Below are positions 166 to 25,036 of a stretch of 64,000 nucleotides of DNA, piece after piece. The position numbers and the translations under genes are program-made. Source of the stretch: Epilithonimonas caeni DSM 17710. Its GTDB lineage: Bacteria; Bacteroidota; Bacteroidia; Flavobacteriales; Weeksellaceae. The notes beneath the pieces are model-generated. The model made no database searches and was not told where the DNA came from. It saw only the letters and a list, made by a program, of their open reading frames with translations. The stretch covers positions 310,001-374,000 of the forward strand of contig NZ_AUFK01000009.1 of the NCBI RefSeq assembly GCF_000426465.1. The letters run 5' to 3'. Every line of letters begins with the position of its first letter. Position 1 is the first letter of the stretch.

Positions 166-2538
166 ATGAACAGAAAAATAAAACACGTTACGGTTCTCGG
201 TTCCGGCGTGATGGGTTCCGGGATTGCCTGTCATCTCGCAGGTAACGGCATTCAGGTTTTGATGTTGGATATGCCTCCGAAAGATTCGGAAAATGCCGAC
301 AAAAAAACAAGGAACAGCGTTGCACAAGGTCATCTTGACAACGCTTTGAAAAGTAATCCTTCACCAATCTATGACAAATCTTTTGCCTCCAGAATTACGG
401 TTGGAAATTTCGAAGATGATTTGGAGAAAATCAAAAATTCGGATTGGGTCATTGAGGTGATTGTCGAGAGACTGGACATCAAACAATCGATGTTTGAGAA
501 AGTGGATAAACTTCGTAAAGAAGGAACTTTGGTAACTTCTAACACATCGGGAATCCCGATTCATCTGATGTCGGAAGGAAGGTCAGAAGATTTCCAGAAG
601 CATTTCTGTGGAACGCATTTCTTCAATCCACCGAGATATCTGAAATTATTTGAAGTAATTCCTGGTCCGAAAACAGACAAATCTGTGATTGATTTCTTTA
701 TGTCTTACGGTGAAAAGTTCCTTGGGAAAACAACGGTTCTTTGTAAAGATACACCAGGATTTATCGGAAACAGAATCGGAGTTTATTCGATGGCGAAAAT
801 TATGGAATTGACGGAAGAAATCGGTTTAACGATTGAAGAAGCCGATTCTTTGACCGGAGATTTGCTGAATCGTCCTAAAACCGGGACTTTCAAATTGGGA
901 GATTTGGTTGGATTAGATACGGCTTTCAACGTAACCAAAGGACTTCAGGCGAATCTTAAAGACGATGAGATGGTTCAGGCACTTAAAGACTCGAAAACTC
1001 TGAATTTCCTGATTGAAAATAAATTTCTTGGTGATAAAGCTAAAAAAGGATTCTATTATAAAGAAAAAGATGCTGGCGGCAATGTGAACCGTTTCGTTCT
1101 TAACTATGAAACGTTGGGCTACGAACCGACAAAACAACCTAAACTTCCTATCGTTACAACAGCGAAAGAAGCCGGAAGTTTGAAAAACCGTTTGCCGATT
1201 TTGTTGAAAGACCAATCCAAAGCCGGAGAATTGATTAGAAAACATTTTGCTTCATTGTTCGCTTACGTTTCTCAAAGAGTTCCGGAAATCACGGATGTAT
1301 TCTACTCTATCGATGATGCAATGAAAACCGGTTATGCCTGGAAATACGGACCGTTCGAAAACTGGGATTTTGTTGGTGTTCAGAAAGGAATTGATTTGGT
1401 AGAAAGTGAAGGCTATAAAGTCGCTGATTGGGTAAAAGAAATGCTGGCTTCCGGAAACGAATCTTTCTACAAGCTGGAAAACGGAAAGCAATTATTCTAC
1501 AATCAGAATACAAAATCGTACGAACCAATTCCTGGTCAGGATGCTTTCATTATACTTAATAATATCAGAAAAGAAAAAACAGTTTGGTCTAATTCCGAAT
1601 CTGCATTAATTGACCTTGGTGACGGTATTTTGAACTTTGAGTTCCGTTCAAAAATGAATTCTCTTGGAGGGGGTGTTTTGGAAGGTCTTAATAAATCCAT
1701 AGACATTGCTGAGAAAGATTACAGAGGTTTGGTTGTTGGAAATCAGGCTGACAATTTCTCAGTCGGCGCTAATCTCGCAATGGTAATGATGATGGCTGTT
1801 GAACAGGATTGGTACGAACTGAATATGGCCATCGCAATGTTCCAACAGACTTCTATGAAGCTAAGATATTCATCAATTCCTGTCATCGCTGCACCTTTCG
1901 GAATGACGCTTGGTGGCGGATGTGAATTCTCGATGCACGCGGACAAAATCGTTGCTGCAGCGGAAACTTACATCGGTTTGGTAGAAGTCGGCGTTGGTTT
2001 GATTCCTGGAGGTGGCGGAACAAAAGAATTTGCATTGAGAGCATTGAAAGGAACGCTTCCAGACGATGTTAAGACCAATCATCTTCGAAATTATTTTATG
2101 AATATCGCAACGGCAAAAGTGGCAACTTCTGCTCACGAAGCCAAGCAAATGGGAATCTTGACCGACAAAGATATTATCGTTGTGAACAAAGACCGACAGA
2201 TTGCTGAAGCCAAACGTCAGGCGATTGTTTTGGATGAATTAGGCTACACGCCGCCAGTTCCTGAGAAAGTTAAAGTTCTAGGAAACGAAGCAATGGGAAT
2301 GTTCTACGTTGGAACTGACCAAATGGTTGCAGGTGGTTACGCATCGGAACACGATAGAAAAATCGCTAACAAAATTGGTTATGTAATGACCGGCGGTAAT
2401 CTTTCTGAACAGACAGAGGTTTCTGAACAATATCTTTTAGATTTGGAAAGAGAAGCATTTTTATCACTTTGTGGAGAAAGAAAAACGCTTGAGAGAATCG
2501 GTGGAATGTTGAAAACAGGAAAACCGGTGAGGAACTAG
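166..2538 (+). CDS. 3-hydroxyacyl-CoA dehydrogenase/enoyl-CoA hydratase fusion (FadB/FadJ-like)
   Basis: This 790-residue protein carries out the hydration and NAD-dependent oxidation steps of fatty acid beta-oxidation. The dehydrogenase is N-terminal: the Rossmann loop GSGVMG is at residues 12-17 and the catalytic histidine lies in CGTHFFNPP (His151). The enoyl-CoA hydratase half follows from about residue 500, with its oxyanion-hole glycines in GGGCEF and the stretch ETYIGLVEVGVGLIPGGGG near 600-620. The domain order is opposite to E. coli FadB, as is usual in Bacteroidetes. The thiolase at 3190 and the acyl-CoA dehydrogenase at 4810 complete the cycle. A REP unit begins two bases after the stop codon, so the 3' flank has been remodelled by the transposase module that follows. 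Confidence 0.93.
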   Translation: MNRKIKHVTVLGSGVMGSGIACHLAGNGIQVLMLDMPPKDSENADKKTRNSVAQGHLDNALKSNPSPIYDKSFASRITVGNFEDDLEKIKNSDWVIEVIVERLDIKQSMFEKVDKLRKEGTLVTSNTSGIPIHLMSEGRSEDFQKHFCGTHFFNPPRYLKLFEVIPGPKTDKSVIDFFMSYGEKFLGKTTVLCKDTPGFIGNRIGVYSMAKIMELTEEIGLTIEEADSLTGDLLNRPKTGTFKLGDLVGLDTAFNVTKGLQANLKDDEMVQALKDSKTLNFLIENKFLGDKAKKGFYYKEKDAGGNVNRFVLNYETLGYEPTKQPKLPIVTTAKEAGSLKNRLPILLKDQSKAGELIRKHFASLFAYVSQRVPEITDVFYSIDDAMKTGYAWKYGPFENWDFVGVQKGIDLVESEGYKVADWVKEMLASGNESFYKLENGKQLFYNQNTKSYEPIPGQDAFIILNNIRKEKTVWSNSESALIDLGDGILNFEFRSKMNSLGGGVLEGLNKSIDIAEKDYRGLVVGNQADNFSVGANLAMVMMMAVEQDWYELNMAIAMFQQTSMKLRYSSIPVIAAPFGMTLGGGCEFSMHADKIVAAAETYIGLVEVGVGLIPGGGGTKEFALRALKGTLPDDVKTNHLRNYFMNIATAKVATSAHEAKQMGILTDKDIIVVNKDRQIAEAKRQAIVLDELGYTPPVPEKVKVLGNEAMGMFYVGTDQMVAGGYASEHDRKIANKIGYVMTGGNLSEQTEVSEQYLLDLEREAFLSLCGERKTLERIGGMLKTGKPVRN

Positions 2539-2539
2539 G

Positions 2540-2616
2540 AAGCTCCGTAGGAGCGACCTGTTAATAGATAACAATATTATCGTTAAGCGGAGCCTCGTAG
2601 AGGCGACCTGATAATT
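2540..2616 (+). repeat. Two REP hairpin units left of transposase 1
   Basis: Unit 1 (2540-2566) has the stem GCTCC-GTA-GGAGC followed by GACCTGTTAATA. Unit 2 (2583-2616) has GCCTC-GTA-GAGGC followed by GACCTGATAAT. The loop and the tail are conserved while the stem bases change in compensating pairs, which argues that the folded form is what is maintained. Both units point toward the transposase gene, and inverted copies lie on its other side. Confidence 0.85.
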
Positions 2617-2625
2617 AATCCAAAA

Positions 2626-3087
2626 ATGGCAAATACCTATACACAAATTTATATTCAAATTGTCTTCGCTGTAAAAGGAAGGCAAAATCTGATTCCAAAA
2701 GAGAATCGGGAAGAACTGCATAAATTTATGACAGGTATAATTTCTAATAGAGGACAGAAATCATTCGCCGTTTTTGCAATGCCAGACCACGTCCATATTC
2801 TGGTAAGTATGAATCCAAATATTTCGGTCTCAGATTTAGTAAGGGATATTAAAGCTGGTTCATCCAAATTTATAAATGATAAGAATTGGATTAACGGAAA
2901 GTTCAGCTGGCAAGAAGGATACGGGGCATTTTCATATTCCAGAAGGGGTGTGGATGCTGTGGTGAAATATATCTTAAACCAGGAAGAACATCATATGAAC
3001 AAATCTTTCAAAAACGAATATTTGGATTTTTTAGAAAAATTCGAAATCGAATATGATTCTAAATATTTATTCGAATGGATTGAATAA
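2626..3087 (+). CDS. REP-associated tyrosine transposase (RAYT, IS200-like Y1 family)
   Basis: This is a 153-residue single-domain Y1 transposase. The HUH motif is visible in MPDHVHIL (His55, His57), and the candidate nucleophile is Tyr115 in VVKYILNQEEHH. Enzymes of this family nick and rejoin single-stranded DNA at hairpins. There is no accessory TnpB. Two hairpin units flank it on each side in inverted orientation (2540-2616 and 3089-3165), the arrangement expected of a RAYT with its cognate REPs. The module sits between fadB and fadA in the same direction, so it is probably read with the operon. It is about 38% identical by impression to the second copy at 24584 and shares the same motif spacing, but has a different REP family. 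Confidence 0.9.
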   Translation: MANTYTQIYIQIVFAVKGRQNLIPKENREELHKFMTGIISNRGQKSFAVFAMPDHVHILVSMNPNISVSDLVRDIKAGSSKFINDKNWINGKFSWQEGYGAFSYSRRGVDAVVKYILNQEEHHMNKSFKNEYLDFLEKFEIEYDSKYLFEWIE

Positions 3088-3088
3088 A

Positions 3089-3165
3089 ATTATCAGGTCG
3101 CTCCTACGGAGCTCCGCTAAAATAAAAAATAATATAGCTATTAACAGAAAACCTCTACGAGGCAC
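3089..3165 (-). repeat. Two REP hairpin units right of transposase 1
   Basis: Read on the minus strand, 3089-3121 gives GCGGAGCTCCGTAGGAGC then GACCTGATAAT, and 3139-3165 gives GCCTCGTAGAGG with a degenerate tail ending CTGTTAATA. They are inverted copies of the two units at 2540-2616, with one stem of each sequence type on both sides. Confidence 0.85.
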
Positions 3166-3189
3166 ATCAAAAATAATAAAATCAAAAAT

Positions 3190-4365
3190 ATGGAAGCATA
3201 TATAGTAACAGGATACAGAACAGCAGTTGGTAAAGCGCCGAAAGGTTCTTTGCGTTTTACCCGTCCGGATGATATGGCGGCAACTGTGATAGAACGTCTG
3301 ATGAAAGATGTTCCAAATCTTGATCCGGCCCGCATCGACGATTTGATTGTCGGTTGTGCAATGCCGGAAGCAGAACAAGGACTGAATGTCGCAAGACTCA
3401 TTTCACTAATGGGATTGGATACGGACAAAGTGCCGGGTGTGACAGTCAACAGATATTGCGCCTCAGGCTCAGAATCGATTGCGATTGCAGCGGCGAAAAT
3501 CAAAGCCGGAATGGCAGAATGCATCATCGCAGGTGGTGCGGAAAGTATGTCTTACATCCCAATGGGCGGTTACAAACCAATCCCGGATACGGATTTAGCC
3601 AAATCAAATCCCGATTACTATTGGGGAATGGGATTAACGGCCGAAGCGGTTGCGAACGAATTTAAAGTGGGTCGTGAGGAACAAGACCAATTTGCCTACA
3701 ATTCACATCAGAAAGCAATTAAAGCGATACAGGAAGGAAAATTTGAAAATCAGATTGTTCCGATTGATGTGAAATATAATTTCCTTGACGAAAAAGAAAA
3801 AATCCAGACCAAAGAATATGCATTCAAACAGGATGAAGGTCCGAGAGCTGATACTTCAATCGAGGCCTTGGCAAAACTTCGTCCGGTTTTCGCTGCGAAT
3901 GGTTCTGTAACAGCAGGTAACTCTTCTCAGACTTCTGACGGTGCTGCTTTCACAATGGTAATGTCCGAAAGAATGGTCAAAGAATTAAATCTGACGCCAG
4001 TTGCAAGACTTCTCTCCTATTCTACAGTTGGTGTTCCGCCAAGAATTATGGGAATTGGTCCAATGTACGCCATTCCAAAAGCGTTGGAACAAGCTGGCCT
4101 TAAACAATCGGATATCGATTTATTTGAATTGAATGAAGCTTTTGCTTCTCAATCCGTTGCCATTTTAAGAGAATTGAGCATCAATCCAGACATCGTTAAT
4201 GTCAACGGAGGCGCAATTGCACTCGGACATCCACTAGGCTGTACAGGAACAAAATTAACAGTCCAACTTCTTGACGAAATGAAACGTAGAAACAGCAAAT
4301 ACGGTGTTGTGACAATGTGCGTTGGAACAGGTCAGGGTGCAGCGAGTGTATTTGAATTGTTATAG
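3190..4365 (+). CDS. Acetyl-CoA C-acyltransferase (beta-ketothiolase, FadA-like)
   Basis: This 391-residue thiolase cleaves 3-ketoacyl-CoA with CoA, the last beta-oxidation step. The nucleophilic cysteine is Cys90 in NRYCASGSES. The C-terminal catalytic motifs are GHPLGCTG (active His) and CVGTGQG (second Cys). Length and motif spacing are those of full-length thiolases. It probably works with the FadB-type fusion upstream, although the two genes are now separated by about 650 bases holding a transposase module. The gene ends 11 bases before the left arm of another inverted-repeat element. Confidence 0.94.
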   Translation: MEAYIVTGYRTAVGKAPKGSLRFTRPDDMAATVIERLMKDVPNLDPARIDDLIVGCAMPEAEQGLNVARLISLMGLDTDKVPGVTVNRYCASGSESIAIAAAKIKAGMAECIIAGGAESMSYIPMGGYKPIPDTDLAKSNPDYYWGMGLTAEAVANEFKVGREEQDQFAYNSHQKAIKAIQEGKFENQIVPIDVKYNFLDEKEKIQTKEYAFKQDEGPRADTSIEALAKLRPVFAANGSVTAGNSSQTSDGAAFTMVMSERMVKELNLTPVARLLSYSTVGVPPRIMGIGPMYAIPKALEQAGLKQSDIDLFELNEAFASQSVAILRELSINPDIVNVNGGAIALGHPLGCTGTKLTVQLLDEMKRRNSKYGVVTMCVGTGQGAASVFELL

Positions 4366-4376
4366 ACAAGGAGAAA

Positions 4377-4788
4377 AAAGAATAAAGAGAAAAGACTTTT
4401 TATAATGAAGCATAATTTTAAGAATCTGAATATTTGGAAATTATCCCTAGAATTAGCTGATGAAATTTATGCAATTACAGAAAGTTTTCCTAAGAATGAA
4501 GAATTCGGGTTAAGATTCCAAATCAGAAGATGTACAGTTTCTGTGGCTTCTAATATTGCGGAAGGTTCAAGCAGAACTTCACAAAAAGATTTCAATCGAT
4601 TTCTAGAAATAAGTCTAGGTTCTCTTTATGAATTACAAACTCAAATAATTATTTCCTCAAGAAGAAATTATATTGAACAATCGAAATTTGAATTAATTGA
4701 AAATAAAATCACCGAATTACAGAGAATGATTTCAGGCTTTCAAAAAACATTGAAATGGTAAGTCTTAATTCTTTTCTCTTTATTCTTT
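4377..4788. mobile_element. Intervening-sequence-like element: inverted repeats around a four-helix-bundle gene
   Basis: Perfect 19-base inverted repeats AAAGAATAAAGAGAAAAGA (4377-4395) and its complement (4770-4788) enclose a single gene, with only 9-10 bases between each arm and the reading frame. In the operon transcript the arms would form one long stem closing a loop of about 370 nucleotides. This matches the layout of the 23S rRNA intervening sequences of Leptospira and others, which also encode this protein family, but here it lies between two protein-coding genes. That it is mobile is inferred. Confidence 0.65.
4405..4761 (+). CDS. Four-helix-bundle protein (23S rRNA-intervening-sequence / S23 family)
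   Basis: The 118-residue product starts MKHNFKNLNIWKLSLELADEI and contains RRCTVSVASNIAEGSSR and KDFNRFLEISLGSLYELQTQ, the hallmarks of the four-helix-bundle family found inside 23S rRNA intervening sequences and, as Avd, in diversity-generating retroelements. Family members form barrel-like pentamers that bind nucleic acid; no enzymatic activity is known. No reverse transcriptase or variable repeat is nearby, so a retroelement accessory role is unlikely. The flanking perfect inverted repeats make it part of a discrete element inserted between the thiolase and acyl-CoA dehydrogenase genes. Confidence 0.85.
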   Translation: MKHNFKNLNIWKLSLELADEIYAITESFPKNEEFGLRFQIRRCTVSVASNIAEGSSRTSQKDFNRFLEISLGSLYELQTQIIISSRRNYIEQSKFELIENKITELQRMISGFQKTLKW

Positions 4789-4809
4789 AATCTAAAAAAA
4801 TAAAATATT

Positions 4810-6597
4810 ATGTCAACAGATACAAAAACATTAGACGGCGGCGAATTTCTTGTAAAGGAAATCACTGCAAACGAAATATTCTCTATTGAAGAATTGTCCG
4901 AAGAACAAAAGATGCTTCGTGATTCTGCTAAGGAATTCATCGATAAAGAAGTGGTTCCGAATAAGGAAAGATTTGAGAAAAAAGATTACGCTTACACGGA
5001 AGAAGTGATGCGTAAAATCGGGGAAATGGGATTCCTGGGAATCGCTGTTCCGGAAGCTTACGGCGGTTTGGGAATGGGATTCGTGACCACAATGCTGGCC
5101 TGCGATTACCTTTCCGGTTCTACAGGTTCATTGGCAACGGCTTATGGCGCGCATACCGGAATCGGAACGCTTCCTATCCTGCTTTACGGAACCGAGGAAC
5201 AAAAGCAGAAATACCTTCCGGACTTGGCTGCCGGAACTAAATTCGGAGCCTATTGTTTGACTGAGCCGGATGCAGGTTCGGACGCCAACAGCGGGAAAAC
5301 AAAAGCTAAACTTTCCGAGGACGGAAAACATTATATTATTAATGGACAAAAAATGTGGATTTCCAATGCCGGATTTGCAGATACATTTACTTTGTTTGCT
5401 AAGATTGATGATGACAAAAACATCACGGGATTCGTTATCAACCGTTCAGAATTAGAAAATCCGGAAAGTCTGACTTTCGGAGAGGAGGAACACAAATTGG
5501 GAATCCGTGCGTCTTCTACGCGTCAGGTTTTCTTCAATGATATGAAAATTCCTGTTGAAAATCTTTTGGGCGAAAGAAACAACGGTTTCAAAATCGCTCT
5601 TAATGCATTGAATGTTGGTCGTATCAAATTAGCTGCAGCCTGTCTGGATGCCCAAAGAAGAATCCTGAATTACTCTTTGAATTATTCGACTGAGAGAAAA
5701 CAATTTGGGGTTTCTATTAATACATTTGGAGCCATTCGCAAGAAACTGGCAGAGATGGCAACGGGTGCTTTCGTGAGCGAAGCTGGTTCTTACAGAGCAG
5801 CGAAAAATGTGGAAGACAAAATCGAAGAACTGGTTGCCGGCGGAATGAACCACGAGCAGGCAGAACTGAAAGGTGTGGAAGAATTTGCAGTTGAATGTTC
5901 TATCCTGAAGGTTTTCGTATCAGATTTAGCCCAGCATACAGCAGATGAAGGCATCCAAATCTACGGTGGAATGGGATTCTCAGAAGATACACCAATGGAA
6001 GCGGCCTGGAGAGATTCCAGGATTTCCAGAATCTACGAAGGAACCAATGAAATCAACAGACTTTTAGCCGTTGGGATGTTAATCAAACGGGCGATGCAAG
6101 GCAAAATCGATTTGTTAACACCTGCGAAAAACGTCGCTAAAGAATTGATGGGCATTCCATCTTTTGACATTCCAGATTATTCAGAATATATGTCTGAGGA
6201 AAAAGAAGTGATTAAGAACTTGAAGAAAGTATTCTTAATGGTTTCCGGTTCTGCCCTTCAAAAATATATGATGGACATCGAGAAACAACAGCATTTATTA
6301 TTAAACGCTTCCGAAATCCTGAACCAAATCTATATGGCAGAATCCGCCATCCTGAGAGCTGAGAAACATTTCTCAACAGATTCTGTAGAAGCGGCAATGG
6401 CAAGACTGAACCTTTACAAAGCAGTTGAAATCATCACAACCAACGCTAAAGAAGGTATCGTTTCTTTCTCCGAAGGTGACGAGCAAAGAATGATGCTAGC
6501 CGGATTAAGACGTTTTACAAAATACGTCAACACACCAAATCCAATTGCATTGACAGAGAAAATTGCAGCTCATTTTATTGAAAAAGGTTCTTACTAG
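4810..6597 (+). CDS. Acyl-CoA dehydrogenase with C-terminal extension (VLCAD-like)
   Basis: This 595-residue FAD enzyme catalyses the first oxidation of acyl-CoA. Recognisable stretches are GAYCLTEPDAGSD (flavin-binding N-terminal/middle domain), WISNAGFAD, and the C-terminal YEGTNEINR, which follows the ETPMEAAWRDSRI region. It is about 200 residues longer than short-chain family members; the extra C-terminal helical domain (from about residue 440) is typical of the very-long-chain-like dehydrogenases of Bacteroidetes. It is the last gene of the beta-oxidation operon and ends before a strong terminator. Two degenerate copies of its last codons plus terminator occur downstream, at about 6801-6904 and 12905-13020. 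Confidence 0.93.
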   Translation: MSTDTKTLDGGEFLVKEITANEIFSIEELSEEQKMLRDSAKEFIDKEVVPNKERFEKKDYAYTEEVMRKIGEMGFLGIAVPEAYGGLGMGFVTTMLACDYLSGSTGSLATAYGAHTGIGTLPILLYGTEEQKQKYLPDLAAGTKFGAYCLTEPDAGSDANSGKTKAKLSEDGKHYIINGQKMWISNAGFADTFTLFAKIDDDKNITGFVINRSELENPESLTFGEEEHKLGIRASSTRQVFFNDMKIPVENLLGERNNGFKIALNALNVGRIKLAAACLDAQRRILNYSLNYSTERKQFGVSINTFGAIRKKLAEMATGAFVSEAGSYRAAKNVEDKIEELVAGGMNHEQAELKGVEEFAVECSILKVFVSDLAQHTADEGIQIYGGMGFSEDTPMEAAWRDSRISRIYEGTNEINRLLAVGMLIKRAMQGKIDLLTPAKNVAKELMGIPSFDIPDYSEYMSEEKEVIKNLKKVFLMVSGSALQKYMMDIEKQQHLLLNASEILNQIYMAESAILRAEKHFSTDSVEAAMARLNLYKAVEIITTNAKEGIVSFSEGDEQRMMLAGLRRFTKYVNTPNPIALTEKIAAHFIEKGSY

Positions 6598-20163: not shown

Positions 20164-20703
20164 ATGAAAGACAAAACACAATATTTTATTATTCCCGGAT
20201 TGGGAAATTCTGGTCCCAAACATTGGCAAAGTTATTTCGAAACATTCGGTGAAAATTTTCACCGAATAAATCAAAAGGAATGGGATGCACCAGATTGTAC
20301 AGATTGGATTGACAATATAGAAGAAACAATTTCAAGATTTAAAACTTCAAATGTGGTTTTAATAGGTCATAGCTTAGGTTGTGCGACAATTGTAAAATGG
20401 TTTGAAAAATACAAAAAACAAATTAAAGGAGCTCTCCTGGTTGCTCCAAGTGATATAGAATCGCCTATTTATACTTTTCCAGCAACAGGTTTCTCTCCTA
20501 TTCCTTTAGAAAAATTACCTTTTACATCCATAGTTGTTACTAGTTCTGATGATGTTTGGGTAAGTTTGAAAAAAGCACAGTTTTTTGCACAAAGATGGGG
20601 AAGCGAATTAATAAACATTGGAAATGCTGGGCATATCAATGCTAATTCTGGGTTTGGAGAATGGAAAGAGGGTTTAGAAATGTTAAAAAAATTTGAAAAA
20701 TGA
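20164..20703 (+). CDS. RBBP9/YdeN-type alpha/beta serine hydrolase inside the trp operon
   Basis: The 179-residue product begins FIIPGLGNSGPKHWQSYFE, characteristic of the RBBP9/YdeN family. The nucleophile Ser lies in LIGHSLGCATIVKW, a likely Asp in SSDDVWVS and the catalytic His in GNAGHINANSGFGEW. It lies three bases after trpE and overlaps trpG by ATGA (20700-20703), so it is translationally coupled to trp genes. No tryptophan-pathway step needs a serine hydrolase, so it is either a passenger or acts on a pathway side product. The substrate is unknown. Confidence 0.88.
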   Translation: MKDKTQYFIIPGLGNSGPKHWQSYFETFGENFHRINQKEWDAPDCTDWIDNIEETISRFKTSNVVLIGHSLGCATIVKWFEKYKKQIKGALLVAPSDIESPIYTFPATGFSPIPLEKLPFTSIVVTSSDDVWVSLKKAQFFAQRWGSELINIGNAGHINANSGFGEWKEGLEMLKKFEK

Positions 20704-21266: not shown

Positions 21267-21328
21267 CAGTTGCTCGTTGTCTGTTGATAGAAAAAAACCG
21301 ACAACTAACAACCATCAACTAACAACTA
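21261..21328. repeat. C/A-rich repeat forming an imperfect hairpin between trpG and trpD
   Basis: The left arm (21261-21290, rich in GTTG) and right arm (21298-21328, CCGACAACTAACAACCATCA and onwards) are imperfect complements separated by a run of A. The right-arm motif recurs in the coding sequence of trpF at 23862-23897, 24243-24274 and 24398-24430. Confidence 0.7.
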
Positions 21329-21332
21329 TATT

Positions 21333-22322
21333 ATGAAACAAATCCTACAATATCTTTTCAATCATCAGACTTTGACGAAAGCCGAAGCTAAGGCGATTCT
21401 GATTGAAATTTCACAAAATAAATTCAACGAAAGCGAGGTCATTTCTTTCATTACGGTTTTCCTAATGAGAACAATTACTTTGGAAGAACTCGAAGGTTTC
21501 CGCGAAGCGTTACTTCAGTTGGCAAAACCTGTCGATCTGGGAACAAAAGATCTGGTTGATATCGTTGGAACTGGCGGAGACGGAAAAAATACATTCAACA
21601 TTTCGACTTTGGCAAGTTTCATCGTTGCCGGAACCGGACAGAAAGTTGCGAAACAAGGTAATTACGGTGCATCTTCTATTTCTGGTTCATCCAATGTTCT
21701 GGAAGAATTGGGATACCAATTCAAAGATAATTCCGAAGATTTGAAAGCCGATCTGGAAAAAGGAAACATCTGTTTTTTGCACGCTCCGTTATTCCACCCC
21801 GCTTTGAAGTCAGTTGCGCCACTTAGGAAACAGCTTGGTCTGAAAACTTTTTTCAATCTGCTTGGGCCTTTAGTTAATCCTGCACGTCCGGATTTCACAA
21901 TGATTGGTGTTGCGAATTTGGAAATTGCAAGAGTCTATCAATATCTTTTGCAGAAGCAAAAAAGCGAGTTTATGATTGTTCACGCTTTGGACGGTTATGA
22001 TGAAATTTCCTTAACCGGTGATACTAAAATCTTCAGCAAATCAGGTGAAAAAATATATTCCGCAGAAGATTTGAAATTCAAAAATGTTTCTCCAGAAAGT
22101 ATTTTCGGTGGAGAAACCAAAGAAGATGCTGCAAAATTATTCATCAAGATTTTAGAAGGTAATGGAACTGAAGAACAAAATTCAGTCGTTCTGGCAAATG
22201 CTTCAATTGCTTTAGAAAACACAGGAAAATATGGGAATTATGAGGATTGCTTGGCTTTGGCAAAAGAAAGTTTAAAAAGTGGAAAAGCGTCGAATTGTTT
22301 AAACTCTTTGGTTAAAAATTAA
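21333..22322 (+). CDS. trpD: Anthranilate phosphoribosyltransferase
   Basis: The 329-residue enzyme transfers phosphoribose from PRPP to anthranilate. GTGGDGKNTFNISTLASF holds the PRPP/Mg-binding loop, KQGNYGASSISGSSNVLEELGY and FHPALKSVAPLRKQLGLKTFFNLLGPLVNPA are family signatures. It is full length. It follows trpG after a 66-base gap occupied by the C/A-rich repeat. Confidence 0.95.
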   Translation: MKQILQYLFNHQTLTKAEAKAILIEISQNKFNESEVISFITVFLMRTITLEELEGFREALLQLAKPVDLGTKDLVDIVGTGGDGKNTFNISTLASFIVAGTGQKVAKQGNYGASSISGSSNVLEELGYQFKDNSEDLKADLEKGNICFLHAPLFHPALKSVAPLRKQLGLKTFFNLLGPLVNPARPDFTMIGVANLEIARVYQYLLQKQKSEFMIVHALDGYDEISLTGDTKIFSKSGEKIYSAEDLKFKNVSPESIFGGETKEDAAKLFIKILEGNGTEEQNSVVLANASIALENTGKYGNYEDCLALAKESLKSGKASNCLNSLVKN

Positions 22323-22332
22323 TAGTTACAAA

Positions 22333-23043
22333 ATGATGGATATAATAACAGAGCTAAAAAAAAGTGAAAAATTCACAGAAGGAAAAAATACTTCTGTGAA
22401 ATATTGCCAGTGTGAAAAATGCTTAATTTCAAGATATAGGCATACCCACGAGCCTAATTTATCCGACCCCAATCATTCATATTGGCAATATTTGAAATTT
22501 TGTATCGAACAAGCTGATACCAATGGAATTTGGTTAGAATTTGGAGTTGGTTCTGGCAAATCCATTTCCTTTATAGCAAAACAAAATGAAAAAGCTAAAA
22601 TATATGGATTTGATAGTTTTTTTGGACTCCCTGAAGATTGGATATTTAGTAATAATAAAGTTTACAAAAAAGATTCTTATTCCAGAAATGGACTAGCGCC
22701 GAATATAAATCAAGAAAATATTGAATTAATTATTGGATTATTTAATGAGACATTACCTGAGTTTTGTAGTAAAAATAAGAATAGGGCTTCTTTAATACAT
22801 ATTGATTGCGACTTATACAGCTCTACTAAAGACGTATTGGATATTCTATATAGTCATTCAATGATTAAATCCGGAACAATAATTTTGTTTGACGAATTTT
22901 ACAATTACCAAAATTATGAAAACTATGAGTATAAAGCATTTACTGAATTCATTAAAGAAACTAGAATAAATTATGAGTGGATTGCTCACACTGAAAGTTT
23001 TGTTGATTGGAATGGAAATCAAGCTGCCTTAAGAGTATTGTAG
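22333..23043 (+). CDS. Class I SAM-dependent methyltransferase (TylF/MycF-like) inside the trp operon
   Basis: The 236-residue protein has a Rossmann-type methyltransferase core: GIWLEFGVGSGKSISFIA (SAM-binding loop), YGFDSFFGLPEDW, LIHIDCDLYSST and GTIILFDEFYNY with acidic metal-ligand candidates, as in macrocin-type O-methyltransferases. An N-terminal CQCEKC cluster (about residues 25-30) could bind metal and is unusual. It lies 10 bases after trpD and 19 before trpC. It has no role in tryptophan synthesis and looks like a passenger acquired in the operon. The substrate is unknown. Confidence 0.82.
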   Translation: MMDIITELKKSEKFTEGKNTSVKYCQCEKCLISRYRHTHEPNLSDPNHSYWQYLKFCIEQADTNGIWLEFGVGSGKSISFIAKQNEKAKIYGFDSFFGLPEDWIFSNNKVYKKDSYSRNGLAPNINQENIELIIGLFNETLPEFCSKNKNRASLIHIDCDLYSSTKDVLDILYSHSMIKSGTIILFDEFYNYQNYENYEYKAFTEFIKETRINYEWIAHTESFVDWNGNQAALRVL

Positions 23044-23062: not shown

Positions 23063-23839
23063 ATGAATATCTTAGATAAAATCATAGAAAGAAAAAAACA
23101 GGAAGTTGCAGAAGCAAAATCCAAAATTTCTGTTGAACAACTAAAAGATTCGGCGTTTTTTGGCAGGCCAACTTTTTCGTTAAAAGAAACGATCAAGACA
23201 AAATCCGGAATTATCTCCGAATTCAAAAGACAATCGCCAAGCAAAGGTATTATCAATGACAAAGTTTCACCTTTGGAAGTTGCTTCACAATATGAAAATT
23301 TCGGAGCAAGTGCGGTTTCTATTTTGACGGACAAAGATTTTTTTGGAGGAAGTTTTGACGATATTTTGAGTGTCAGAAATCACGTTAATATTCCTATTCT
23401 GAGGAAAGATTTTATGATTGATGAATACCAGTTTTATGAAGCAAAATCAATCGGAGCAGACGTCATTTTGTTGATTGCTGCTTGCCTTTCTCCAAATCAG
23501 GTTTTGGAATTTACAGAATTGGCGCATTCTCTCGATCTCGAAGTTTTATTGGAAATCCATTCTGAAGAAGAATTAAAACAGATCAACAAAAATGTTGATT
23601 TTGTAGGAATCAACAACAGAAATTTAAAAGATTTTAAAGTTGATTTGCAGCATTCCGTAGATTTGAAAAACCAGCTTCCAAAAGATATTTTCTCTGTTGC
23701 AGAAAGCGGAATCTATAACGAAGAAGATTTTAATTTTTTAAGAGAAAAAGGATTTGATGGATTTTTAATGGGTGAATATTTTATGAAAAATGAAAATCCG
23801 GGAAATAAATTCGCAACTTTTGTAAAAAGTATAATGTAA
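23063..23839 (+). CDS. trpC: Indole-3-glycerol-phosphate synthase
   Basis: This 258-residue TIM barrel closes the indole ring. Signatures are IISEFKRQSPSKG (catalytic Lys), ILRKDFMIDEYQFYEAKSIGADVILL, VGINNRNLKDF and SVAESGI. It is a separate protein, not fused to TrpF. It ends two bases before the trpF frame. Confidence 0.95.
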   Translation: MNILDKIIERKKQEVAEAKSKISVEQLKDSAFFGRPTFSLKETIKTKSGIISEFKRQSPSKGIINDKVSPLEVASQYENFGASAVSILTDKDFFGGSFDDILSVRNHVNIPILRKDFMIDEYQFYEAKSIGADVILLIAACLSPNQVLEFTELAHSLDLEVLLEIHSEEELKQINKNVDFVGINNRNLKDFKVDLQHSVDLKNQLPKDIFSVAESGIYNEEDFNFLREKGFDGFLMGEYFMKNENPGNKFATFVKSIM

Positions 23840-23840
23840 A

Positions 23841-24539
23841 ATGTACAAAGTAATGAGTACAACTAACCGACAACCAACAACCAAAAACTATCAACTAAAA
23901 GTCTGCGGATTAACAAAACTAAATCAAATTAAAGAATTGGTTGATTTGAAAATTGATTTTCTAGGATTTATCTTTTATGACAAATCTCCAAGATATGTTT
24001 TGAATCATTTGAGTTTAAAACAAATTGCGGAAATTCCACATTTCAAAAAAGTGGGTGTTTTTGTAAACGAGAGTATCAAAGGAATTGCTAAAATAGTTTC
24101 AGAAGCTCATCTTGATATAATTCAATTACATGGTAATGAAGATGAAAAATATATAAAGCTATTAAGGCAAATGATAGGTGAAAGTATTAAAATCATCAAA
24201 GTCATTAGAATAGGAAATCAAACTATAGAAGAGTTACAAAAAACCATCAACCAACAACCAACAACTATCAATTATCTCCTATTTGACACCGATTCCCAAG
24301 CTTTCGGCGGAACAGGAAAAACCTTTGACTGGAACATTTTAAATGACATCAAGATTCCAATTCCTTATTTTTTAAGCGGGGGGATTTCATTGGAAAACAG
24401 CCATCAACTGTCAACCATCAGCCATCAACCTTTTGCGCTCGACATCAACTCAAAATTTGAGATCGAACCTGGAAATAAAGATTTAGAAAAAGTAAAAAAA
24501 TTTATAAAAAAAATAGAAAGTTCCGAAGGAATGACTTAA
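23841..24539 (+). CDS. trpF: Phosphoribosylanthranilate isomerase with repeat-derived insertions
   Basis: The 232-residue product has all TrpF motifs: LKVCGLTKL (catalytic Cys), LDIIQLHGNE, LFDTDSQAFGGTGKTFDW (catalytic Asp), FLSGGISLEN and ALDINSKFEIEPGNKD. It is about 20-25 residues longer than usual. The extra residues coincide with three copies of a C/A-rich repeat: the N-terminal STTNRQPTTKNYQ, the internal TINQQPTTINY and SHQLSTISHQP. Starts at 23841 and 23853 are both possible, because the canonical protein begins only near LKVCG. The last codons and stop (SSEGMT*) lie in a REP unit. The insertions fall at loops, so activity is probably kept. Confidence 0.9.
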   Translation: MYKVMSTTNRQPTTKNYQLKVCGLTKLNQIKELVDLKIDFLGFIFYDKSPRYVLNHLSLKQIAEIPHFKKVGVFVNESIKGIAKIVSEAHLDIIQLHGNEDEKYIKLLRQMIGESIKIIKVIRIGNQTIEELQKTINQQPTTINYLLFDTDSQAFGGTGKTFDWNILNDIKIPIPYFLSGGISLENSHQLSTISHQPFALDINSKFEIEPGNKDLEKVKKFIKKIESSEGMT

Positions 24540-24583: not shown

Positions 24584-25036
24584 ATGCCTCAGTCTTTAGT
24601 AAAAAATTATGTACATATTATTTTTAGCACTAAACATAGAAATGATTTTATAGACGAAAAAATTGAATCCGAATTGTTTTCATACATAGCAAAGATTTGC
24701 AAAGATTTTGAAAGTACTGCATTGCAAATAGGAGGAACTGATAATCACATTCATATCCTTTGTCTCCTATCCCGGAAAATTGCCTTAATGAAATTGGTTC
24801 AGGAAGTAAAAGCACATTCTTCGAAATGGATAAAAACAAAAGGCAAAAAATATGAAGACTTTTTCTGGCAAGATGGTTATGGAGCATTTTCAGTAAGTCC
24901 TAATAACATTTCTTTTGTGAAAAAGTATATTAAAAATCAAAGAGAACATCACAAGGAATTTGACTTTAAAACAGAAATCATTAATTATTACAAAAAATAC
25001 AATATGGAATACAATGAGAAATACCTTTGGGATTGA
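24584..25036 (+). CDS. REP-associated tyrosine transposase 2 (RAYT, Y1 family)
   Basis: This 150-residue Y1 transposase has HUH residues His55 and His57 in DNHIHIL and candidate nucleophile Tyr115 in FVKKYIKNQREHH, at the same positions as the copy at 2626. FFWQDGYGAFSVS corresponds to FSWQEGYGAFSYS there. It is bracketed by hairpin-linker-hairpin units (24521-24566, 25040-25084, inverted 25187-25233), a different family from the first module. It sits between trpF and trpB in operon orientation. Its stop codon lies inside a CCTTTGGGA/TCCCAAAGG inverted repeat (25024-25049). Confidence 0.9.
   Translation: MPQSLVKNYVHIIFSTKHRNDFIDEKIESELFSYIAKICKDFESTALQIGGTDNHIHILCLLSRKIALMKLVQEVKAHSSKWIKTKGKKYEDFFWQDGYGAFSVSPNNISFVKKYIKNQREHHKEFDFKTEIINYYKKYNMEYNEKYLWD

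Follow-up and report, generated by a model that had tools for sequence, protein, structure and literature searches.

A small IVP gene between inverted arrays of seven-nucleotide words: a probable mobile cassette in a fad operon spacer

The spacer between a thiolase gene and an acyl-CoA dehydrogenase gene of the window, by which we mean the whole stretch of 64,000 nucleotides analysed here, harbours what is probably a promoterless mobile cassette that resembles the intervening sequences (IVSs) of ribosomal RNA. It comprises a single IVP gene between inverted arrays of seven-nucleotide words, which would be its ends. We put the probability of this reading at about 60%, the recognition of the ends by the protein and the movement of the cassette being the parts that we infer. 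The cassette would settle immediately after the stop codon of an upstream gene, from which it would presumably be transcribed by read-through, and would pass from species to species into the same spacers of operons, thereby displacing other cassettes. Solved relatives of the protein (2gsc and 2rld) have five chains in each entry, and a pentameric IVP protein probably recognises the heptad arrays; each of its subunits might read about one word, at either end of the cassette, be it as DNA ends or as single strand. Matching words may be kept in both arms because each arm can template the other when folded, and spread could be achieved by protein-assisted annealing plus homologous recombination of the host.

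The element is compact. Its 5' arm core of 19 nt (4377–4395, forward strand, AAAGAATAAAGAGAAAAGA), recognised from the sequence and by repeat search, has its exact reverse complement in the 19-nt 3' arm core at 4770–4788 of the same strand. The arms embrace, with gaps of 9 and 8 bases on the 5' and the 3' side, respectively, a forward-strand gene (4405–4761) for a four-helix-bundle protein of 118 amino acids, which by profile matches belongs to PF05635 (23S_rRNA_IVP) and TIGR02436; its PF05635 score is 131.9 bits at a cut-off of 33.8. It is the sole sense-strand ORF of at least 60 amino acids in the spacer. The host genes, both on the forward strand and identified by family matches, are the thiolase gene (fadA, 3190–4365), behind whose stop codon TAG (4363–4365) the cassette directly follows, and the acyl-CoA dehydrogenase gene (4810–6597), here called fadE. 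The first-pass annotation had claimed perfect 19-base inverted repeats closely enclosing a small four-helix-bundle gene, membership of the protein in the family known from 23S rRNA IVSs, and a location between these two genes. All of this is borne out.

With imperfect pairing the inverted repeat extends to 27 nt at 89% identity (4372–4398/4767–4793). Read by eye, the 5' arm with its flanks consists of four seven-nucleotide AG words, AGAAAAA-AGAATAA-AGAGAAA-AGACTTT (4372–4399). The arm cores are well conserved: among nine orthologues none of the 19 sites of the 5' core and one of the 19 sites of the 3' core vary, that is 1/38, as compared with 22/53 in the adjoining spacer (p = 1.4 × 10−5) and 65/354 in the gene (p = 0.011). 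A profile search revealed no transposase domain in the IVP protein, and the element thus lacks the own transposase of an insertion sequence. Nothing in Rfam matched at gathering score across 2400–5000. A phage collection searched at E 1 × 10−5 gave no match either, and carriage by a phage was therefore rejected.

Relatives show that the junction is a place of exchange. No genome of the genus has an empty fadA-fadE spacer (23/23 filled), and four kinds of insert occur there. Kind A, the cassette of the window, is found in nine genomes; kind B, in five, has an IVP about 50% identical to that of the window and other arms; kind C, also in five, has an IVP from another subfamily and again other arms; kind D, in the remaining four, is a nuclease gene of about 1 kb, of which the one tested encodes 335 amino acids of the YhcG/DUF1016 type. 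At least two of these cassettes look broken, one by an internal stop (kind C in G005), the other by a frameshift (kind B in G009). From other genera of the family 47 genomes matched, 26 were taken as loci, and fadA was seen in 25. Nine of these 25 junctions are empty (22–95 bases without an ORF of 60 amino acids), and 11 contain IVP genes, one of them a short ORF (L321). The rest, sorted by eye, comprise a 337-residue ORF that begins much like kind D, other or broken contents at two junctions, and geneless heptad-like arrays at two more (L337 and L340). The L340 spacer consists of 111 bases of inverted heptad-like arrays and looks like an internally deleted cassette. In a single other genus the junction is empty in two genomes and filled in one; a comparison by eye between empty and filled junctions in one other genus (L326, L327, L328), where the spacer is short and A/T-rich, did not establish a target-site duplication.

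The proposal that an IVS-like element had been inserted into the spacer of an mRNA thus stands, on account of the PF05635 protein, the inverted arms, and the empty junctions and other cassettes in relatives. Empty sites, which the proposal led one to look for, do exist outside the genus, but not within it. A gene with its arms conserved at this place in all relatives and present nowhere else would look different: 9/25 junctions are empty, other species carry other cassettes at the same place, and PF05635 has eight matches in the own genome, seven of them above cut-off. That the type A arm is a dispersed repeat was considered and set aside; exact copies of its 17-nt pattern occur outside the slot at three places in the 23 genomes (in G001, G009 and G013), and copies with one mismatch are commoner than those of a reversed control. 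Type A cassettes are mostly more alike between species than the neighbouring host genes. In 32 of 36 pairs their distance is smaller than that of the host gene over the 600 bases next to them; the corresponding figures are 5/10 for kind B, 8/10 (with one tie) for C and 2/6 for D, the pairs being non-independent in all kinds.

A second slot is found in the same operon. Between fadB and fadA of the window (2541–3163, forward strand) a Y1 transposase gene (2626–3087) lies between REP-like palindromes. In the 23 genomes of the genus this slot is empty in four (29–30 bp), holds a Y1 transposase in five and a decayed one, judged by the palindromes, in two, an IVP gene in 11 and another ORF in one. 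The 11 IVP inserts represent three further kinds of IVP cassette. The spacers of one metabolic operon are, hence, slots where unrelated small genes replace one another between close species. A PDDEXK_3 nuclease gene lies some 2 kb before fadB of the window, between arms of yet another type (L060, 1023–1403); among the 11 genomes of the genus in which both neighbours were found, the spacer of this gene has measured lengths between −34 and 613 bases.

The contents of the slots are only weakly linked to the tree of the flanking genes. On a tree built from fadA and fadE of the genus, 8 of whose 20 inner branches are unresolved, the fadA-fadE contents require 10 parsimony changes (minimum 3, shuffled mean 12.2), a count reached or undercut in 17 of 200 shuffles. 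For the fadB-fadA contents 13 changes are needed (minimum 5, shuffled mean 13.7), with the same or fewer in 81 of 200. The fadA-fadE slot retains a trace of vertical signal. Contents near random relative to the flanking tree are what frequent recombination predicts, and one could imagine that the cassettes have no mobility of their own, that their heptads grow by slippage and that they are alleles shuffled solely by homologous recombination between the flanking genes. The numbers of heptads do vary. This explanation, however, does not account for several unrelated IVP cassettes at one junction, for similar cassettes and words at places without flank homology, or for the word pattern that they share; we regard it as quite unlikely.

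The family is not confined to this operon. In the genus PF05635 matches number 1–9 per genome, and all 23 genomes carry IVP genes. Of 126 IVP ORFs in the genus, 107 loci were kept after removal of repeats; three loci (L008, L070, L122) have no ORF. In the class, which we take to be Bacteroidia, the family is present in 93 of 119 genomes, and 69 loci come from among the best-scoring matches, 29 of them as supplied and 40 by our own selection from the matches listed. This class sample first had 72 rows; L182 and L238 proved to be the same place twice, L196 a broken gene split in two, and a recount was made on 70 rows, while the counts of period, stop codon, wobble and motif still use 72. A third, named sample holds 87 IVP genes; its 80 loci are the best-ranking ones among 568 confirmed candidates from one peptide pattern. 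Bacteroidota make up most of it, beside a small number of metagenome bins that bear the names of other phyla, and three of its IVP ORFs have no flanks. The three samples share no row. A plasmid protein search yielded 28 records with IVP, mostly cyanobacterial, of which 16, all cyanobacterial, form a plasmid set that stands outside the motif model. L238, a piece of 10.3 kb from G051, contains three IVP genes with different arms within about 8 kb.

IVP genes follow the direction of the gene before them. In the genus the upstream gene, where one was called, is co-oriented in 105/105 cases, or in 55/55 if distinct upstream gene ends are counted, against a baseline of 134/173 for adjacent genes of the same loci; the downstream gene is co-oriented in 90/101. 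In the class sample, with doubles removed, the figures are 63/68 upstream and 44/62 downstream, at a baseline of 9/11 that comprises 11 gene pairs only. In the named sample they are 78/80 and 65/74, with a baseline of 43/60. The upstream anchor genes include what we presume to be fecC, an ABC ATPase gene and a ferritin-like gene. The gene preceding an IVP cassette ends with TAG in 75 of 175 cases, as compared with 87 of 400 other genes; the first AG of the array is, therefore, often the end of that stop codon.

The arms belong to the individual cassette. The score of each pair was compared with the scores obtained on combining arms from different cassettes. The 95% level of these cross pairs is surpassed by the own arms in 86/107 genus, 49/70 class and 58/87 named cases, and the 99% level in 61/107, 34/70 and 31/87, respectively; 21 of the 107 genus loci, being below the 95% level, are IVP genes without significant arms. 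For the 5' arm of the window, no 3' flank of any other cluster scored equally well. The repeats are inverted, not direct: as direct repeats just 8/70 class and 9/87 named cases exceed the 99% level, and the median score of 67 cluster-and-slot representatives is 14 for inverted versus 8 for direct. Control genes of 90–250 amino acids surpass the 95% level in 10/56 and the 99% level in 7/56 cases. Judged by size, sequence and place, four of these seven are Y1 transposase genes and the other three PDDEXK_3 genes, all with arms that are not heptads; without them the control values fall to 3/49 and 0/49.

Do arms and gene move together? Mostly, the arms travel with the gene. Among IVP pairs without flank homology beyond the arms, the sharing of arm 6-mers is 0.082 at 20–50% protein identity, 0.093 at 50–60%, 0.149 at 60–70% (123 pairs) and 0.280 at 70% or more (37 pairs); related pairs are non-independent, and the trend was the same in an earlier version that used called neighbours. 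Some IVPs of 74–86% identity at different places (cluster 2; L255/L257) share no arm words. Different kinds of cassette at one host junction carry different words.

What the arms have in common is a grammar. They are mostly mirrored arrays of degenerate seven-nucleotide words, the 5' arm being approximately a repeated AGWNNWN and the 3' arm its reverse complement. Self-matching peaks at 7, 14 and 21 nt in the genus, class, named and plasmid samples; weaker peaks at 8 nt, in places also at 16 and 24, are seen in the flanks of the first three. The excess of matching at lag 7, upstream and downstream, is +0.115 and +0.073 in the genus, +0.116 and +0.129 in the class, +0.118 and +0.147 in the named sample and +0.203 and +0.192 on the cyanobacterial plasmids, whereas gene bodies give −0.014 and 91 other spacers −0.005. 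A free-phase motif model found a similar word independently in the 5' arms and in the reverse-complemented 3' arms: a G with a frequency of 0.51–0.80, a preceding A with 0.41–0.75, then A or T, the remaining positions being weakly constrained. A motif of width 7 scores 4.68 per sequence versus 2.37 after shuffling, one of width 8 scores 3.24 versus 2.61; with widths 5, 6, 9 and 10 the score differs little from that of shuffled sequence. The grammar is loose, the motif clear in the class and named samples and weakest in the genus. Around plasmid IVP genes plain heptanucleotide arrays are found, such as AGGGAGT/ACTCCCT in Nostoc edaphicum, AGGGAAC in Nostoc C052, AGGTGAC in Anabaena 90 and AGGGTGT in Calothrix brevissima. 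Own arms of the plasmid set exceed the 95% cross level in 8/16 and the 99% level in 6/16 cases; the arrays of L348 are direct, not inverted.

The first-pass annotation had also suggested that the arms pair in the transcript, that RNase III cuts the resulting stem and that the operon mRNA is thereby split. Protein family and architecture are indeed those of rRNA IVSs, and IVP genes are co-oriented with the upstream gene. A Coxiella IVS with a 28-bp stem is cut by RNase III in vitro, according to the available text of PMC4990558. The stem is part of the minimum-energy fold predicted for the element of the window, but the z-score of this fold against shuffles is only −1.69. A sense-RNA stem would, moreover, favour mismatches that still pair as G-U, and of these there is no excess: in 190 arm pairs, 221 transitions are compatible with G-U pairing in the sense strand versus 319 incompatible ones (p = 3 × 10−5 by column; counted by element, 55 versus 78, p = 0.056). 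This result speaks against an RNA stem as the maintained function; the count of 221 versus 319 is the reverse of what selection for such a stem would give, and that reading was set aside. To our knowledge, a periodic word of seven nucleotides is not among the requirements of RNase III. Finally, 3 of the 16 cyanobacterial plasmid copies are antisense to their upstream gene. An mRNA intervening sequence is, all in all, an unlikely account of the element. Processing of the stem may occur, but it is not what keeps the arms alike; the pattern of mismatches leaves a role of the arms at the DNA level or as single strand. As to the earlier idea, its insertion half holds, with a generality well beyond what had been suggested, while the excision at the RNA level is unsupported.

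Heptad arrays also occur without an IVP gene. In 411 kb, made up of the window and operon sequence of the genus with orthologous stretches included, 73 heptad blocks were counted; 37 of them lie within 150 nt of an IVP gene, 36 do not. In the window, a geneless array on the forward strand occupies the spacer (21294–21331) before the gene starting at 21333, and another (23819–23901, forward strand) runs over the end of the gene at 23063–23839, the spacer and the start of trpF (23841–24539). Two more, at 24232–24284 and 24396–24434, lie in frame inside trpF. This gene, the only one scanned in this way, has at least one heptad block in 23/23 genomes of the genus, and the same loops contain different words in different species, e.g., CAACCAT, ATCTAAA or AGTCAGA. 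The geneless blocks and the heptads in the coding sequence of trpF imply that arrays spread or persist on their own, too. Between the trp genes of the window, labelled by us on assumption as trpC, trpD, trpE and trpG, lie genes for a serine hydrolase (20164–20703), a TylF-type methyltransferase (22333–23043) and a Y1 transposase (24584–25036). In view of these genes, the trp spacers, too, look like insertion slots.

Arrays without a gene would be at home in a different scheme, in which the heptads are regulatory or structural sites of the host, acting in DNA or RNA, e.g., in translation control or as G-quadruplex, and the IVP genes merely share their spacers. Proposals of this kind are found in the available texts on TAACTGA repeats (PMC4679880) and GGGAATC repeats (PMC4692102). 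Against it we have to hold that the arrays come as inverted pairs on the two sides of the IVP gene, that their words are specific for the cassette, that they mostly accompany the gene to other places and that they differ between cassettes at one host junction. The last point is incompatible with a regulatory hairpin of the host as the whole story. The scheme appears improbable to us.

Helpers encoded elsewhere were also considered. PF05635 proteins resemble Avd, the accessory protein of diversity-generating retroelements (available text of PMC10053308), and an Avd-like protein might be moved by a reverse transcriptase in trans. The window protein, however, reaches 34.2 bits against DivGenRetAVD, the cut-off of which is 80 bits, and for 14 of the 23 genomes of the genus, the own one included, a search with RVT_1 at E 0.001 gave no match, although all 23 have IVP genes. 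The homology of the four-helix bundles notwithstanding, we consider a retroelement highly improbable, and reverse transcriptase in trans was rejected because of the 14 genomes. A Y1 transposase as obligatory helper fared no better: two IVP-bearing genomes of the 23 gave no Y1 match at E 1 × 10−8. Within the limits of these searches neither enzyme is required in the genus. REP elements with their RAYT/Y1 transposases are a parallel at the same sites, being likewise single-gene cassettes between palindromes in the very operon slots that IVP cassettes use; they differ in the transposase family and in palindromic arms without heptads.

The promoterless IVP cassette, our preferred reading, has a close counterpart in the 23S rRNA IVSs with an S23/IVP ORF of Salmonella, Leptospira and Coxiella. 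There, too, one short ORF for a PF05635-type protein stands within inverted repeats. Those IVSs, however, sit in rRNA, whereas the element of the window lies in the spacer of a protein operon, within a stretch (2400–5000) that has no Rfam match; the cassettes described here further differ by several alternative cassettes per slot and, perhaps, by arms made of heptad arrays. Since the content is IVS-like and the location is not, the element is filed as a heptad-armed IVP cassette.

The other relatives are repeats. IVP arms share their tandem seven-nucleotide units with STRR-like repeats, STRR being, as we understand it, the name applied to tandem heptanucleotide repeats; this is seen from the lag peaks in four samples, the width test and the 5' arm of the window. 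TAACTGA is found in the arms of the IVP cassette L037, and compared by hand it fits the 3'-arm pattern. As far as the available texts go, the tandem heptanucleotides of cyanobacteria, reported, e.g., from Calothrix (PMC4692102), the TAACTGA repeats of Beggiatoaceae (PMC4679880) and the GGGAATC repeats of Xanthomonas (PMC4692102) are, as here, seven-nucleotide units in spacers near stop and start codons, with some of the Xanthomonas arrays forming inverted pairs. The TAACTGA and GGGAATC repeats are described as stand-alone, and neither paper mentions S23 in its main text. A link between the PF05635 family and heptamer repeats was not found in the literature searched, which left most subscription papers uncovered and is, thus, weak evidence of novelty. 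MacGregor raised a repeat-binding mobile protein as one possibility for the TAACTGA repeats (available text of PMC4679880), for which IVP now is a concrete candidate with a testable word pattern.

Two puzzles are thereby tied together, namely what the S23/IVP four-helix bundle does and where the heptamer arrays between genes come from, and mobile IVP cassettes may explain how some of the puzzling heptamer repeats of bacteria arose. A bolder generalisation is offered tentatively, and we would not be surprised to see it fail. IVP/S23 proteins could be the mobility and recognition factors of widespread elements, pentamers that read AG-anchored heptads at inverted ends; the known heptamer repeats of cyanobacteria, perhaps also those of Beggiatoaceae and Xanthomonas, could be ends, relics or landing products of such elements, in-frame insertions in trpF loops included, and the rRNA IVSs a special case that landed in 23S rRNA.

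On cyanobacterial plasmids IVP genes are also seen inside CRISPR gene clusters (L348, L355, L356), two of them in cas6-cas4 and one in cmr2-cmr3.
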